Below, piece after piece: positions 962 through 9,494 of a stretch of DNA of 64,000 bases; position 1 is the first letter of the stretch, and the number at the start of each line of letters is the position of its first letter. Both the position numbers and the translations under genes were made by a program. The notes under the pieces were generated by a model. That model did not search any database, had not been told where the DNA came from, and worked only from the letters and a program-made list of their open reading frames with translations. The DNA is from Nakaseomyces glabratus (Eukaryota; Ascomycota; Saccharomycetes; Saccharomycetales; Saccharomycetaceae), in assembly GCF_010111755.1 (NCBI RefSeq), contig NC_088963.1, forward strand, positions 558,001-622,000. The letters are read 5' to 3'.

Positions 962-1322
962 TTAATGATTTGTTGAGATAAGAAATAAATTTGGCCTTTA
1001 TATTCATATACATGACAAACCAAAAATGGCGAGTGAGTCGCTTAACATCTAGATTAATAGATGTATATCCTTTGCAGTCAAAAGTCTCTAATACAACAAT
1101 CCATGAAGTATAACAAACTTGTTGGAGTTGCCACATAATAATTGAGTACGCCTACAATTTCGAATTAGTACGCTGTCACATAAAAAAATACCTCATACAA
1201 TGACAGTATCTCTCTAAATAAAGTAAAGTAAACCACTTATCCTGAACACAATAATCAATTGAATCATTAATTGCAACTTTAACTTGCCATTTACCTCAGA
1301 GTAAAATGAACCAAAAAAAAAG
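962..1322. other. Spacer between tRNA-Arg and tRNA-Asp
   Basis: This 361-bp AT-rich spacer has no recognisable gene. It holds the CAACA Pol III start motif for tRNA-Asp (972-976, minus strand) and the T9 terminator of tRNA-Arg. The 89-codon open frame crossing it overlaps tRNA-Asp and looks like chance. I could not match it to the Ty5-like LTR seen nearby. In S. cerevisiae the equivalent tRNA-Arg/tRNA-Asp pair has only a spacer of about 10 bp. Confidence 0.6.
1313..1321 (-). terminator. Pol III terminator of tRNA-Arg
   Basis: A run of nine T residues on the minus strand, 1 nt past the tRNA-Arg 3' end. It should end transcription before the downstream tRNA-Asp. Confidence 0.75.
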
Positions 1323-1394
1323 CACTCACGATGGGGGTCGAACCCATAATCTTCTGATTAGAAGTCAGACGCGTTGCCATTACGCCACGCGAGC
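1323..1394 (-). tRNA. tRNA-Arg (anticodon UCU)
   Basis: A 72-nt intronless tRNA on the minus strand. The acceptor arms are GCTCGCG and CGTGAGT with a G discriminator, the anticodon loop reads ACTTCTAAT (UCU), and the T arm has GGTTCGACCC. It matches S. cerevisiae tRNA-Arg(UCU) as I remember it. A CAACA Pol III start motif lies at 1404-1408 (minus strand), 10-14 nt upstream. A Ty5-like element begins 29 bp upstream of its 5' end. Confidence 0.97.
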
Positions 1395-1423
1395 ATCTTA
1401 ACTTGTTGTGACTGAAAAAAATT

Positions 1424-1811
1424 TGTTGATCATAGATTACTTATTGCCTATGTAAGTGATAATAGGTCTCACGTGACTCATGGTAATGAATATATATGAA
1501 ATTGGAGAATGTAGAGATACTTTTGAGGATACACTTTTAAGTTGTGGTGTACTCTTCTGAAATTAAGACACAATCCCAAAAGTATATAACGGAGATTATT
1601 CTTTAAGTAACTATCTAGATCATATTACTCTCTCTGAACATTGTTGTATTTGCTATTAAAATTTCATAAGAGAGGAACCAACAATTATTTAAATACCCTT
1701 ACTTAATTTTATTTCTTATAGTATATTTGCTAGATAATTCACCATGGAACTTGTTTATCCTTTGTTGTGTCAAACTATAGCTAATGGTGAATTGGCTTCC
1801 CTAAAGCAACA
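1424..1811 (+). repeat. Left LTR of the Ty5-like element
   Basis: A 388-bp direct repeat of 3040-3429, about 96% identical by eye (roughly 15 differences plus a 2-bp indel). It contains a CACGTG E-box (1470-1475) overlapping a TGACTCA Gcn4-type site (1474-1480), a TATATAA box (1583-1589), and the first 22 codons of gag from 1744. It ends in CAACA directly before the primer-binding site. Confidence 0.95.
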
Positions 1812-3045
1812 GGTTATGAGCCTTGCCGCAAACACCTATGATGCAAGCACAACTATTAAACTAACTGAAGTTGGGGACTATAAAAAATGGATACAAATGT
1901 TAGAATCCACTTTAACCATGGCTCATTCAGCATGGTCTGAATTCTATCATGCAGGACCTTATGATGTGAAGACTATAAGTGATCCTACAGTTAAAATCCA
2001 ACTTTCATTCCTGAACGATGCATTGGTTTGCTTAATTAAGAAAAGGGTATCTGACGATGCGGTTAAAAATATTAATAAAATAATATTATCCCTCACTAAT
2101 TTCTCGAACTCAGCCTTCAAGATACTAGATTACCTTAAAGGAAGATATGACAGAAATAACAGCAGAACATCATTTAAACAGAATTATGGGTGGATTACAA
2201 ACTACCAATCAATGACCCATGAAGATTTATTTCGTGAGATCACTTCAATGATGGAAGCTCTGTTAAATTACGATGAGTATGAACTAGCATTGTTAAACAC
2301 CATACCCAAAGATGATCAAGCCAAATTCATAGTAAGAAAAGAGAATCTAATCAAACAATCTGCAGCAGGTATGATGCTCGGATATTTACCAGAACATCTC
2401 AGAGAAGGATATTTTAAACAATGGGGACATACAGCAGAGTTTCAGACTTACGAAATTGTAGACATTGTAGTTGGTTCCAATGTCAACAATTCTCAGTCGG
2501 TTAACCATGGTTCCTTAGCAAATGCAGAAAATAAAAACTATAAGAAACAAAACAGAGACAAAAAACCACATTTCCGCAAACAAAAAACTAAGCCCAAGTG
2601 CCTATACTGCGGAAAACCGCATAAGCTCAGTGAGTGTAAAATACTATTCCAAGATAATCCTGATGCCGAAGTATTCAAAACTTTCGGTCCTCCAAGCATC
2701 GATGAGGAGCTATCCGGTGCGTATGAATACACGATCCAAGAGAAACCTGAGACATTGATATGGAATTCTGGGGCCAGTACTCACATGTGCTGCAATAAAC
2801 AATTCTTCATTGAATATAAGGATTTGAAAGCACATACAAGTGAAATATCACAATATCCGACAACAAGTTGCCGCGAAGCACGTGAGGCTTCAATACATGC
2901 CTACAAAGAACCAGCTAGCCGACATCATGACCAAGACCATACCCAGAACCCAGCACGAGGCCTTAAGGAACTCGATTCTGTAGCCATTATAAAGTCTGGG
3001 GGGAGTACCACTTACTCAGTTCAAGCGGTATGGAGGGGATGTTGA
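1744..3045 (+). CDS. Gag and truncated protease of the Ty5-like element
   Basis: The 433-codon frame starts inside the left LTR and stops within the first bases of the right LTR. The N-terminal LKQQVMS segment is encoded across the primer-binding site, as in Ty5. Residues 286-298 form a CX2CX3HX4C zinc knuckle (C286, C289, H293, C298) after a Lys/Arg-rich stretch, as expected for nucleocapsid. At 340-349 the WNSGASTHMC motif is the start of a copia-type protease, but the catalytic Asp of D(S/T)GA is Asn341, so protease should be dead. From about residue 362 the frame reads through deleted pol sequence out of frame, so the last 70 residues are probably meaningless. Gag itself is uninterrupted and could still assemble or interfere with relatives (inference). 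Confidence 0.88.
   Translation: MELVYPLLCQTIANGELASLKQQVMSLAANTYDASTTIKLTEVGDYKKWIQMLESTLTMAHSAWSEFYHAGPYDVKTISDPTVKIQLSFLNDALVCLIKKRVSDDAVKNINKIILSLTNFSNSAFKILDYLKGRYDRNNSRTSFKQNYGWITNYQSMTHEDLFREITSMMEALLNYDEYELALLNTIPKDDQAKFIVRKENLIKQSAAGMMLGYLPEHLREGYFKQWGHTAEFQTYEIVDIVVGSNVNNSQSVNHGSLANAENKNYKKQNRDKKPHFRKQKTKPKCLYCGKPHKLSECKILFQDNPDAEVFKTFGPPSIDEELSGAYEYTIQEKPETLIWNSGASTHMCCNKQFFIEYKDLKAHTSEISQYPTTSCREAREASIHAYKEPASRHHDQDHTQNPARGLKELDSVAIIKSGGSTTYSVQAVWRGC
1812..1822 (+). other. Half-tRNA primer-binding site (initiator Met anticodon loop)
   Basis: GGTTATGAGCC lies directly after the left LTR. Its complement GGCTCATAACC equals the anticodon stem-loop of yeast initiator tRNA-Met, including the CAT anticodon. 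Ty5 and Drosophila copia prime from this internal tRNA fragment; Ty1 and Ty3 use the tRNA 3' end. Confidence 0.9.
2828..2983 (+). pseudogene. RNase H C-terminal remnant of the Ty5-like pol
   Basis: In the frame +1 to gag, bases 2828-2983 encode about 51 residues beginning KHIQVKYHNIRQQVAAKHV and containing YMPTKNQLADIMTK before a TAG stop. This is the conserved end of Ty1/copia RNase H. It has no start codon of its own and joins the protease part out of frame, which marks the internal deletion junction at about 2825-2835. Confidence 0.9.
3031..3039 (+). other. Polypurine tract
   Basis: TGGAGGGGA directly precedes the right LTR, where plus-strand DNA synthesis is primed in LTR retrotransposons. 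Confidence 0.8.
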
Positions 3046-3429
3046 ACATAGATTACTTATTGCCTATGTAAGTGATAATAGGTCTCACGTGACTCATGGT
3101 AATGAATATATATGATATTGGAGAATATAGAGATACTTTTGAGGATACACTTTTAAGTTGTGGTGCACTCTAATATAAAATGAAGACACAATCCCAAAAG
3201 TATATAACGGAGATTCTTCTTCAAGTAACTAGCTATCTCATATTACTCTCTCTGAACATTGTTGTATTTGCTATTAAAATTTCATAAGAGAGGAACCAAC
3301 AATTATTTAAATACCCTTACTTAATTTTATTTCTTATAGTATATTTGCTAGATAATTCACCATGGAACTTGTTTATCCTTTGTTGTGTCAAACTATAGCT
3401 AATGGTGAATTAGCTTCCCTAAAGCAACA
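3040..3429 (+). repeat. Right LTR of the Ty5-like element
   Basis: A 390-bp copy of the left LTR, TGTTG to CAACA. It keeps the CACGTG/TGACTCA pair (3086-3096), the TATA box and the truncated gag start at 3362. The imperfect target repeat TAATT follows. Confidence 0.95.
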
Positions 3430-3957
3430 TAATTAGCTTCTTATTACGGAGAGGGAGAGAAAGAGATATGATCTATTCAATAGCGTTAAGATATGAAATT
3501 GCATAGCTACATAGCATTAATAAATGAGAGTGAAAAATGTTATCTTAGCAAGCTCTTTATTTAAAAACTATGCTGCAAGAGCTAACCACTAAAGTACAAT
3601 TTAATGCGCTGGTGCCTGTAATTCGCTTCAATTTAGACACATCATAGAGAACGTGCTTGAAATACCCAAAATGACAACAGTAGCAACTATTAATTATAAC
3701 TTTAATGTTGGGATATCAAAAGTACATAAGAACACTACACATTGTTTTTGATCTGTTACACGTAACAAACATACTTTTAATGGTAAGGCTTACTTCCTTC
3801 ACATTTTCCTCATTGACTTATGAAATTAATACTTTAAAAATTGCCACGTTCATCCATTATTATAGGACCATAAAATCAGCTAGGTACTGACCGTATAAGT
3901 TAGATAGAACTTACCTAACAATATTTTGATACATGAATCTAAATATTTCCCATCATT
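3430..3957. other. Spacer between the retroelement and the IBTK-like gene
   Basis: 528 bp, AT-rich, presumably the promoter and 5' UTR of the IBTK-like gene. The 61-codon frame at 3705-3890 resembles nothing I know. No RNA gene is seen. Confidence 0.5.
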
Positions 3958-6900
3958 ATGCCAAAAAGCTACAATGAAAATGATATATGGAAGATAAGAG
4001 ATGTATTTGGTAGAGATCTATCATATATTTCAAGTTGCCTCCCATCATTGGAGGATTATAAGCAAATCAATTTGAATAGCAGCGATTTAGAAAGCGGATA
4101 TTCCCCTTTACATGTAACTCTGAGAGAAAGATTATTACAGAAGAGTTTTCTGCTCTACAAGAGGTGGGTTGACGATGAGAAACAGATGAGTTATAAAATT
4201 GGACAGCACATTTTGGCTCGAAAGGATAGAGAGGGTCTTACACCTATGGATCTATACAATATCGAATTCCAAAGAGCCCTGAAAGTTAAACCACAATTAT
4301 TAGAATACACAATTGATAATGGGAATTTAAAGCCAAAGGTTATTTTTGAAAAAGTTAATCATTTGGATAGTGAAGGTATAGCCACTACTAAAAGTTGTAG
4401 CAATAATGAGCTGCTAAGAAGTACATCTTTTCTAGAAATACCTCAAAATTATAGTGACATGGCCAAAATACGAAATTTAGGTGGATCTCATTTATTAACT
4501 TTCGGCTCAAATGTTAACGCCCAATTAGGTACAGGAAATAAAGATGATAGACAGCATTTTCACGAAACAGACTACCAACAACTTGGCGGAGATTTACCAC
4601 TAGACCCGAAAAAATTTTCTATAAAAGAGGTCCTTATGTCAAGATACCATTGTTTAGTAATTAATTCTTTTGGAGAAGTTTTCACGTGTGGGAATAGTAA
4701 TAGAGGTAGACTTGGTAACGGTGAAACTAACACAACAGTATCTGTTTTTACAAAAATTGCAACGTTTGAGACGGGTGTCAGACATGTTTCCATAAGCAAT
4801 CATCATAACCTTTTAGTAGATGGGAATGGCTATATTTATTCTTGGGGGTGGAACCAATATTATCAATTAGGCTATACATCTAGTAATAAACAGGGCGATT
4901 CAAAACATACGCTATGTAAATCATCACCAAAAAGAATTCCATATTTTGATAATATTAATATCAAGTATGTGGCGTGTTCAAAAGTACATTCATGTGCTCT
5001 AAGTCAGGATAATAAATTGTATTTATGGGGACTAAATCTTGGTCAGATGGGAAATAAAAAGCCATTACATGTTAATCTTGATATTTCTCATGACCATAAC
5101 AATGGATACATTATTGAAAGTCCACTAGTAATTGATTTGTCACATCTACAGGTTGAACAGGTCTTAGCTCTAGAGCTTGTGACTTTTATAAGATGTTCCG
5201 GAAACACGCTAATTGTTCTCACTGATTTTTGTATGAGGACTTTTAAGATATCTACCCCAAAACCTAAAAATCCTACTAGAATTGATATATTCTCACATTA
5301 TACACCAAAAACGATATCGGCTGACGTTGTTGACATGAAGTGCTCTAATAAGGTTGGAAATCATCTTTTTTTCAAATATGCTTCTGGCAGAGTCGGATAC
5401 TTGTCCCTCAAAAAGGAGAACGTGGAGTCGTGGTCAAAATTATCGAATGAGCTGCCAATATCATTTTCTTGGAAGCCAAATTTTGCAAGAAACAATTGTA
5501 CAGATTTTGCAGTTGGCTACAATGGAGATATCATAATTTGCACCTATGGAGGGGAAATATTTATATCTAGAAACCATGCGGAATTTGAAAGAATTTACAG
5601 TAACAAATTAATCACCGGTAGGGCTGTTAAGATTTCGAGTGATACATCACTCGGCTCCGTTGCAATTATAAAACAGGATTATCTATTTATGCCCGCCAAA
5701 TATTTAAAAGATACGTTTGATTTTGATCTGGCTATTTATTCACCAATTTACCAAAACGTCGGTGACACATTATCTTTAGGATCATTAGGTCTCCAATGTC
5801 ATGTTAAGGAAACTGACAGTCAACTCTTCCTGTCTTCAAAGTCTAATATATCTAACTTGCGCTACTCAGAAATTAATGGGTCTAGTGTAAATGAAAACCA
5901 AATCAAATGCTCCTCATATGACGTTATTTTGAATAATGATAGGGGCATTATAGAATGCTATTCGTTCAAATCACTATTTTCTCTTCGTTGTTCCAAGTTC
6001 CTTAATGCTATTTTAAATGATGGTAAATTTACAGTAAATAATGAACTTTTTTTTACCGCTAATGAAACAGCAAATGGCATATTACAGATAAAAACCCATG
6101 ATTTAACCACATCAGCTGTCTACTATAAAATTTCAGTTGATCTTGTTCATTTTCTACTAACTGATGTTAAACCTGCAAACCAACAGAGGTCAATAGCCAT
6201 ATTATCCATAACAGACAATTATGCACATGGTACTACATTGAGAAATGCACTCAGTTCGTACTTACTGGGTATGCTAACAAATGATACTGATGAAAATAGA
6301 ATAAAATCGCCCGGTAACCATCTGCTGGGAGATACCATACTAAGACTTAAAGATAAAACTCTAATCGTCGACTCATTCCTACTGTCAGCAAGAAGCAATT
6401 ACTTCAAAGGGTTACTTTCAAATAGTGTTTTTTGTGAAAAAGATAATGACGGAAAGTATTTGATTAATTTGGAAATTTATTCCTATAAACAGTTTGATAT
6501 TATATTAAAGTACTTATACGGTGTTGATTTTTCTGATCTGCACCCTCACTATGAGAGTGAAGATGGCGGACTCACTAATTTTCTTGAAAGTCTAGTTCTG
6601 GCCGATGAGCTATGTCTAGAACCATTAAAATGCTATATGCAGGTGCTTTTAAGCCAATTTATTGACGGAAATTCAATTATTCCATTATTTATATATTCCG
6701 TGAGGAGTAATGCAGAAATGCTATGTCTATTATGCTCCACATTCATTGCTATACATATCGGCGTTTTGTTTGTCAAGGATAACGTACAACTCATATCACA
6801 GAATTTTGATGATTCTCATTGGAAAATACTACAAAACAATATATCGTATATTACTTCTGAGCAATTGAATCACGAGCTGTGGTATAACAACTCAACTGAT

Positions 6901-8013
6901 AACTGGAGATCTTTGTTCAAGAATGATATCAATAAATTCAATAGCAAGTTCATTTCCCCCAAAGATAAATTTAGTCCTATTTTTGATATTAAAGATACTT
7001 TGGAAGTTTCAAGCAAAAAGACTTCTACTGATAGGAGGAGGTCATCCACATCGACTAGACCAATTAAATTTAAAAACACAACAATGAATAATACTTCTGA
7101 CAACCCGCATAGAAGACAAAGTAATGGCTCTGTCAGTATAGCTGAAAAGCTGTCAGCATCTAATTCATCTGATGAGGACTCACAATTTATAGAAGTTACA
7201 AGAAAACCGAAGAGGAAGAGTGTTTCTAATATACAGGAATCGCAGACTCCGGTGCCCAAGCTACATCCTCCAAAACCAAATATTCTTATCCATAGGAAAC
7301 TTTCTGGTGACGAGAAACTACTACCATCCTTGATATCGAATGAACCAATTGTGGAAATACCTAATCAGAAAAAAAACCAATCAGAAATAGGCCCAAAAAA
7401 ACCTATTTCATTTAAAAAAACCTCTCAAAAGGAAAGAATTAAAACTACAACACAAGCAGATAAGCAGAAAGAGAACAAAACGAAAGAATCTGCTTGGACT
7501 AATCAGAAACAAAACAGTAGTTTATCAAACCCAAAAGACAATCAAACCTCGAAATTAGCTGCATTGCCATCTTTAAACGATAGCAAATTACAGAAACAGG
7601 ACTTGAAACCAAACAAAAAGAGCAAAAAGAAAGCGAACAACAAACAATCAGCCGAATTCATTAGCAGCGGTAATTTTGCCGGTTTAACTCCCTACCTAAG
7701 CACAGTACACAAAGAGAGCGTCACTACTGATACCACACCCTCATGGACAGCCTCTACTGTATCCGATTTCAAACAAAAAGTTGAAGCACAAGAATTTGAA
7801 AAGTGGTTTCAAGAAGAGAGCAAAAGAGTTCAATTGGAATTGGAAAGAAGGGGGTCTTCTCATCATGACGAATTAAAGGTTCTCTATGATAGTTCACAAA
7901 ACATACCGGGCTTTGTCATAGATTCTAATGTTAAGAAAGCAGGTAGAAAAATCAAAGGAAAGTTCAAAGCAAAATTAAAAAATAAAGACGAGAATATAAA
8001 TAGTATACAGTAA
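3958..8013 (+). CDS. IBTK-like protein: ankyrin, RCC1 repeats, BTB domain
   Basis: A 1351-residue protein. Residues about 45-110 look like degenerate ankyrin repeats (SGYSPLHVTL, DREGLTPMDLYN). Residues about 174-390 contain RCC1 blades (LLTFGSNVNAQLGTG, VFTCGNSNRGRLGNG, IYSWGWNQYYQLGY, LYLWGLNLGQMGN). Residues about 790-930 form a BTB fold (GDTILRLKD, VDSFLLSARSNYFKGLLS, ILKYLYGVDF). The last 330 residues are Lys/Ser/Asn-rich, with a charged helix near the end. This order, and the length, match animal IBTK and fungal relatives; BTB proteins of this kind are Cul3 ubiquitin-ligase adaptors (family knowledge). Activity here is inferred. S. cerevisiae has no counterpart between DFG5 and RNT1 and, as far as I know, none elsewhere. 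The start at 3958 is the first ATG of the frame. Confidence 0.85.
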   Translation: MPKSYNENDIWKIRDVFGRDLSYISSCLPSLEDYKQINLNSSDLESGYSPLHVTLRERLLQKSFLLYKRWVDDEKQMSYKIGQHILARKDREGLTPMDLYNIEFQRALKVKPQLLEYTIDNGNLKPKVIFEKVNHLDSEGIATTKSCSNNELLRSTSFLEIPQNYSDMAKIRNLGGSHLLTFGSNVNAQLGTGNKDDRQHFHETDYQQLGGDLPLDPKKFSIKEVLMSRYHCLVINSFGEVFTCGNSNRGRLGNGETNTTVSVFTKIATFETGVRHVSISNHHNLLVDGNGYIYSWGWNQYYQLGYTSSNKQGDSKHTLCKSSPKRIPYFDNINIKYVACSKVHSCALSQDNKLYLWGLNLGQMGNKKPLHVNLDISHDHNNGYIIESPLVIDLSHLQVEQVLALELVTFIRCSGNTLIVLTDFCMRTFKISTPKPKNPTRIDIFSHYTPKTISADVVDMKCSNKVGNHLFFKYASGRVGYLSLKKENVESWSKLSNELPISFSWKPNFARNNCTDFAVGYNGDIIICTYGGEIFISRNHAEFERIYSNKLITGRAVKISSDTSLGSVAIIKQDYLFMPAKYLKDTFDFDLAIYSPIYQNVGDTLSLGSLGLQCHVKETDSQLFLSSKSNISNLRYSEINGSSVNENQIKCSSYDVILNNDRGIIECYSFKSLFSLRCSKFLNAILNDGKFTVNNELFFTANETANGILQIKTHDLTTSAVYYKISVDLVHFLLTDVKPANQQRSIAILSITDNYAHGTTLRNALSSYLLGMLTNDTDENRIKSPGNHLLGDTILRLKDKTLIVDSFLLSARSNYFKGLLSNSVFCEKDNDGKYLINLEIYSYKQFDIILKYLYGVDFSDLHPHYESEDGGLTNFLESLVLADELCLEPLKCYMQVLLSQFIDGNSIIPLFIYSVRSNAEMLCLLCSTFIAIHIGVLFVKDNVQLISQNFDDSHWKILQNNISYITSEQLNHELWYNNSTDNWRSLFKNDINKFNSKFISPKDKFSPIFDIKDTLEVSSKKTSTDRRRSSTSTRPIKFKNTTMNNTSDNPHRRQSNGSVSIAEKLSASNSSDEDSQFIEVTRKPKRKSVSNIQESQTPVPKLHPPKPNILIHRKLSGDEKLLPSLISNEPIVEIPNQKKNQSEIGPKKPISFKKTSQKERIKTTTQADKQKENKTKESAWTNQKQNSSLSNPKDNQTSKLAALPSLNDSKLQKQDLKPNKKSKKKANNKQSAEFISSGNFAGLTPYLSTVHKESVTTDTTPSWTASTVSDFKQKVEAQEFEKWFQEESKRVQLELERRGSSHHDELKVLYDSSQNIPGFVIDSNVKKAGRKIKGKFKAKLKNKDENINSIQ

Positions 8014-8144
8014 GTACAATTGTATCATATAAGTTCATAACGTACGTGAAAGAGATGCCTAAAAATCGAACAAAAAGACCAAGGTAAAACAAGTAAAAAC
8101 GAGAATATTATTTATTTATGCTGGATTCTAAGATCAACTCACGT

Positions 8145-9494
8145 CTAACCCGATAGCTCGCATATATCCTTTTCTCCTTGCTCTTTATTTGTCGTTCTGG
8201 GCTGCTCGTTTTTGGAAACTGATTGCTCTCTGGGAATGGATGCACGAAGTTTAGCATATTTCTCTATAACATCTTCCTTTCTCAGAACATCCTCAGCAGC
8301 CTTCACACCGGCCAGTTTAATATTTCTCGCCTTACCAACCCCAAGTATAGTACCATCTCCAGTTCTGCATTGTACAATTGTCACTGGATTTTCATTAGTG
8401 GGTCTCTGTACTGTATGATAATGTAGTTTTAAAGCTGCATAACCAATCAATGAATATAGCTTTCTCTTGGCATTCATGTCTAAATTGTTTGTTGGCTCGA
8501 GTTGAATACTTGTTTTCATTGCTTCTTCGATCTTCGGCTTCGCAAGCTTCTTTAGCCACTTTCTTATTTTGACTAAGTTGGTCTTTGGATCGTCCTCCAT
8601 TAATCCTCCAATATAGGCCTCAAAAATATCGGCGGACGTCTTGGAAGTACTTAGATCGACATCGGGAGACAAGTTACTTTTCAGCTGTTTTGGAAGCTCG
8701 TACAATTCCGACCACTCTCTCAAGGTCTCATTTTTAACAAGTTTTTTCCTCAATTCTGTCAAGTTACCTTCATTTAATGACGGGAACTTGTTATAGATAA
8801 TCATAGTCATTACTGTGTTTAGGATAGAGTCACCCAAAAACTCCAATCTTTCGTTATTAGATTTGATAATATCACTTTCATTCAAATATACCTTATCATT
8901 CACCAGTGACTTGTGCATGAAAACTCTGGCTCTAATTACATGGTCCTTGATCTCTGGCATCTCCGGTGGCCATTTCGAGGATTTCTCCTTTGAAGTGATA
9001 CACTCAGAGGATTCGCTACTCTTGGCCACAGACAAATCCAGGTCTAGCCGTCCGATATCGTCATCCTCCAAATCTTGTAAATCACTGAGTTCCAAATCAC
9101 CCAGCACCGGCTCCCTATTAGAAGCATCGAACTTCGCCTCATACCCACTAATATCGTCCAGCAGAGTGGACTTGTTGAGATCATGTAGTGTCTTAATCTC
9201 AGCGGCCAACTTCAATGGATACCTGGTAAACAAAGAGATTAGCTGCGGTGGCACTTTCTCAGGGTCAGACAGCGAGTTCAAAGTCTCATAATACTGGACT
9301 ATATTCGGGGACAGCTTCAGAATACGCTGGTAAGCCTCCACCAATTTATGCACCGCATGCTCTATCTGGATAGCATTAGAGTATTGGTAAGTACCAACTT
9401 GCTCAGTCGAATTCTTCTCATACAAGTCAACCAACTCAGACGTTAATCGGGATTTCTTCTTGGAAGCTTTCCCAACTTTCCCAATTTTACCCAT
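8145..9494 (-). CDS. RNT1: Ribonuclease III
   Basis: 449 residues; the S. cerevisiae protein is slightly longer. Rnt1 is the nuclear double-strand RNase that cuts tetraloop-capped stems in pre-rRNA, snRNAs, snoRNAs and some mRNAs. The RNase III signature [10 protein letters not shown] lies at about residues 212-222, and the second acidic cluster ([11 protein letters not shown]) follows at about residue 290. The double-stranded RNA-binding domain spans about 338-408 ([14 protein letters not shown] to KAAEDVLR). The N-terminal yeast-specific dimerisation region precedes these, and a short Lys/Glu-rich tail follows. A PAC motif at 9582-9591, 88 bp upstream of the ATG, suggests control with the ribosome-biogenesis genes. 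Confidence 0.97.

Follow-up and report, generated by a model that had tools for sequence, protein, structure and literature searches.

What becomes of a retrotransposon that has kept gag but lost most of pol? This question is raised by a Ty5-family element at positions 1424-3429 of the window analysed here, a 64,000-nucleotide stretch of contig NC_088963.1 (positions 558,001 to 622,000) of Nakaseomyces glabratus (Candida glabrata). Both long terminal repeats (LTRs), a primer-binding site, a purine tract and one open frame are present. A preliminary description proposed that such an element could be mobilised by full-length relatives, or that its Gag might interfere with them. The evidence presented below points instead to an old relic of the Ty5 family (Pseudoviridae), confined to one locus and internally deleted, which is probably decaying neutrally. 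The case is instructive in that gag is still open although no Ty5 machinery was found in this yeast genome, and it serves as a warning that an open gag at an LTR divergence of a few percent is no evidence of function.

Assignment to the Ty5-like elements, already made in the preliminary description, is borne out by the Ty5 Gag domain (PF17241, E 1.6e-41, 142 bits against a cut-off of 23.5), by a primer-binding site that matches the anticodon arm of tRNA-Met, and by the paired LTRs. Exact matches to the arm pattern occur at four places in the genome, all of which (4/4) are called as tRNA-Met(CAT) by ARAGORN; presumably, these are the initiator genes. Both LTRs start with TGTTG and end with CAACA, termini that are typical of Ty5, and the purine tract, GGAGGGGA, lies directly before the 3' LTR. 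The flanks of the element, AAATT and TAATT, agree at 4/5 positions. The ATG of gag, at 1744, is inside the 5' LTR, and the first gag codons are consequently present in the 3' LTR too. Thus, the extent, the LTRs, the primer-binding site and the polypurine tract given in that description could all be located by alignment or in the sequence itself. The element shares its Gag family and a remnant of copia-type RNase H with the Ty5 of Saccharomyces and with Ty5-like yeast elements, and it also shares a primer site in the tRNA-iMet anticodon stem, a feature called diagnostic in the available part of one study (PMC12711049). It differs from Ty5 in that an internal deletion has removed integrase and reverse transcriptase.

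This deletion has left the beginning of protease fused to the RNase H end. Gag and the protease start are read as a single uninterrupted frame (1744-3045), whose protease region resembles Pfam Pol_BBD below the cut-off of that family (E 1.6e-4). In the protease motif, WNSGAS, codon 341 specifies Asn, where the related protein P0002 has Asp. From 2828 onward, a frame different from that of Gag encodes the C-terminal 51 residues of a copia-type RNase H, which match the end of the copia-type Pol P0013 (46% identity over 46 aa, E 3e-13). Searches of Pfam, NCBIfam and solved structures gave no match to this tail, and tblastn gave weak matches in two plasmid records. Between the protease start and the RNase H end there is neither a match to integrase or reverse transcriptase nor room for them, so that only the two extremities of the copia-order pol (PR-IN-RT-RH) are left. 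The gag frame reads on for 72 codons beyond the junction, into the 3' LTR. The uninterrupted gag, the loss of integrase and reverse transcriptase, the shortened protease with its catalytic Asp changed to Asn, and the out-of-frame RNase H tail had all been described before and are upheld here.

The same junction is found in P0001, a protein encoded on a 1295-base contig from another source, which is the same across the junction (1/277 residues differs; the first 156 residues are not covered). This argues that the deletion is genuine and not confined to one assembly. P0002, in turn, retains protease and integrase domains and differs at 29/290 aligned gag/protease residues (90% identity over the gag part). 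This yeast-like Ty5-family protein is filed under Streptomyces deserti, and is probably a contamination of that assembly; its source contig matched 0/2 Streptomyces genomes and then 0/392 genomes drawn from a larger group. No coding relatives of the element were found in the genome-contig or viral-contig collections.

The LTRs are identical at 375/388 aligned sites, with 13 mismatches and one 2-bp gap. When these changes were polarised with two solo LTRs, the 5' LTR proved to have 7 private substitutions and the 2-bp deletion, and the 3' LTR 4 private substitutions, while a further 2 differences were not placeable by this comparison. Since both carry private changes, the sequences indicate that the two LTRs have decayed independently of each other. 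At this divergence, approximately 19 substitutions are expected in a neutral gag, with nonsense hits expected at 0.84. The probability that it would contain no stop is therefore 0.43 (range from the counting error, 0.23-0.64), and that of no frameshift is approximately 0.3, with a very wide range given that the rate comes from a single indel event in the LTR pair. With a neutral probability of this size, the open gag is no evidence of selection.

Several observations weigh against such a relic. The LTR differences are clustered (P 0.02), and partial gene conversion may therefore have made the LTRs appear younger than they are. The cis signals and gag both survive. The second dataset also has the junction, which shows that the copy has persisted, although its locus may be the same in both. 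Lastly, the 72 codons that follow the junction are free of stops, with a chance of 0.024 in a base shuffle that ignores the other coding frame; this openness may reflect the former coding frame, and we give it no weight.

The fate of a mobile element also depends on its company. Searches covered the host genome (13 contigs, 12.7 Mb), in which counts of DNA matches are lower bounds. A DNA search with the whole element returned the element itself and pieces of two solo LTRs, making it the sole internal copy found, and a search with the LTR alone returned the same places (solo LTR identity 83-86% for the main pieces, 84 and 95% for the short ones). The presence of one internal copy fits the account, in the available part of PMC4022208, that C. 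glabrata holds just a few degenerate element copies. The accessible text of PMC3847288 describes newly sequenced Nakaseomyces species as lacking detectable active transposons, and no further gag locus is mentioned in the available parts of PMC5499181 or PMC3847288. The PF17241 profile marked four places: the element, two intact open reading frames (ORFs) that share its contig at a distance of 230 kb, and a relic on contig C9. The latter (L014:4400-5200) has four stops in its matched part and is situated upstream of a tRNA-Val gene, at approximately 0.8 kb.

Neither the PF00665 profile nor P0002 as a query detected a Ty5-type integrase in the genome. The only match of PF00665 was a Ty3/gypsy-type element on contig C7, and P0002, a gag-protease-integrase protein, found gag pieces and, weakly, this gypsy integrase, and nothing else. 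For reverse transcriptase, the RVT_2 profile had no match in the genome, a weak test in that 14 control genomes were silent too. The Pol query P0010 found no copia reverse transcriptase, again a weak test, as it missed the gypsy integrase on C7; its two weak matches on contig C10 fell within residues 221-265 (best E 0.01). The C7 element itself (L021, G000:C7:688001-698000, positions 3232-9343) has long reading frames, lies near a tRNA-Lys gene and looks recent, with direct repeats that are identical over 509 bp (3232-3740, 8835-9343).

These searches bear on the proposal that the element is non-autonomous and was moved, in its deleted form, by full-length relatives present in other strains. 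The retained cis signals would permit this, and P0002 indicates that a related gag-protease-integrase frame exists elsewhere. In addition, the available part of PMC5555451 reports the duplication of 'M05115g' in two clinical isolates. That gene is described there as LTR-flanked and similar to Ty5-6, and its copy on chromosome G as flanked by the same LTR and beside a Ty-like gene. M05115g is probably the ORF of the window, judging from the chromosome letter and the description rather than from sequence, and the chromosome G copy sets the report apart from the genome studied here. In the literature, no occurrence of the name CAGL0M05115g was found, nor anything on Tcg3 together with glabrata. 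However, copies sharing the deletion at several loci were not found in this genome, where the searches gave one internal copy and no Ty5-type integrase, and P0001 may represent this very locus as it occurs in another strain. As for full-length copies or copies with the same junction, the DNA search found none elsewhere in the genome, while other sequence sets contain the same junction (P0001) and an integrase-bearing relative (P0002). Mobilisation by full-length relatives is thus without support here, and we regard it as unlikely. A comparable case is Ty5.L of Wickerhamomyces anomalus, likewise a non-autonomous Ty5-family element with two LTRs and a tRNA-iMet primer site; it differs, according to the accessible text of PMC12711049, in that the 2.4 kb separating its LTRs is non-coding and that its species also harbours autonomous partners, whereas the window element keeps gag and is single.

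By analogy with Ty1 p22 or Drt2, the Gag of the window element might instead be a dominant interferer that acts against Ty5-family elements. The likeness lies in a product that derives from Gag and is encoded at a fixed relic locus (PMC10951436, available in part). Nonetheless, p22 and the DRT2 product are capsid C-terminal-domain proteins with a shown capacity for restriction, whereas the Gag of the element is nearly whole and has its zinc knuckle. Moreover, no target element was found in this genome, and the openness of gag is what neutral decay predicts at the age of the LTRs (P 0.43). The sequence therefore lends the idea no support, and it appears very improbable. An assembly artefact or chimera, which a single internal copy might suggest, is scarcely credible given that the protein of P0001, obtained from another source, agrees across the junction with one substitution in 277 aa, and that the 5-bp flanks are coherent.

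We thus return to a probable relic in neutral decay, whose history would be as follows. The element would have been inserted by an integrase upstream of a tRNA-Arg gene, and the internal deletion could date from reverse transcription or have arisen afterwards at the present site. As no working protease, integrase or reverse transcriptase would be made, the element should be unable to move itself. An LTR-driven transcript, if there is any, would yield Gag that stays unprocessed and is extended by a protease stub and by 72 residues of foreign sequence.

Better candidates for interference, judging from their sequences, are the two intact ORFs detected 230 kb away. These capsid-only Gag genes lack LTRs, are both open (234 and 238 aa) and share 33% identity; their neighbours on either side are a CLU1-like gene and a Mer2 gene. 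They correspond to DUF5314 records of N. glabratus (P0004, 1/234 residues differ; P0003, 2/238), gave no match in the viral-contig collection, and no literature was found that links glabrata with DUF5314. They may be domesticated Gags, and would fit the interferer idea better than the window element does. It is conceivable, albeit distinctly improbable, that they form a domesticated restriction system that poisons Ty5-family particles, independent of Ty1 p22/Drt2, and that the gag-only element of the window is its stranded victim. If this were true, Gag-based control would exist in yeasts outside the Ty1 family; in any case, the pair is a useful and testable by-product of the analysis. Kinship of the pair with the pericentromeric Centroid family was also considered and was dropped, as the available part of PMC9731477 reports no member in C. 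glabrata and no sign of a mobile-element origin.

The coordinates of the features discussed are collected in Table 1.

Table 1. Features of the Ty5-family element, its surroundings and related loci (window positions unless a locus is named).
Feature	Position	Strand	Basis or remark
Host tRNA-Arg(TCT)	1322..1394	-	element 29 bp upstream of tRNA 5' end
5' half of degenerate 5-bp target duplication (AAATT)	1419..1423	n/a	3' partner TAATT, 4/5 identical
5' LTR, 388 bp, holds gag start codon	1424..1811	+	LTR alignment
Single open frame, 433 aa: Gag, protease start, 72 out-of-frame codons	1744..3045	+	ORF call, Pfam PF17241
Primer-binding site, complement of tRNA-Met anticodon arm, 11/11	1812..1822	+	sequence match
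Gag zinc-knuckle motif CX2CX3HX4C	2599..2637	+	read from sequence
Protease catalytic position, Asn (AAT); Asp in P0002	2764..2766	+	comparison with P0002
RNase H C-terminal remnant, other frame; deletion junction at its start or immediately before it	2828..2980	+	P0013 match
Purine tract adjoining 3' LTR	3032..3039	+	sequence
3' LTR, 390 bp	3040..3429	+	LTR alignment
3' half of degenerate target duplication (TAATT)	3430..3434	n/a	5' partner AAATT
Ty5-type LTR insertions beside tRNA	window 1322-1424; L016:4447-4962		29 bp; 16 bp upstream
Capsid-only Ty5-type Gag genes, head to head	L013:4079-4783 and L013:6628-7344 (G000:C13 ~789.1-792.3 kb)	- and +	PF17241

The LTR-defined insertions also have a bearing on target choice. 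In Saccharomyces, Ty5 favours silent chromatin (PMC7175516), and in several yeasts the Ty5-like elements are clustered around centromeres (PMC12711049; both sources available in part). Here, by contrast, two of the three insertions, the window element and the solo LTR on contig C2, each have a tRNA gene close by and lie upstream of its 5' end, at 29 and 16 bp respectively, with the start of the LTR toward the tRNA in both. The chance of finding 2/3 insertions within 30 bp of such a gene is near 1e-6, assuming 200-300 tRNA genes. The third LTR copy is approximately 16 kb from the end of contig C13, with no tRNA gene within the 9 kb fetched. All three insertions have near-matching 5-bp flanks (4/5 each). 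A preference for tRNA genes in this lineage would differ from the habits of both Saccharomyces Ty5 and the centromeric Ty5-like elements, although three copies are few. The solo LTR on C13 contains an extra ~110 bp (L015:4101-4210), perhaps from another element, part of which resembles, by eye, the flank of the solo LTR on C2.
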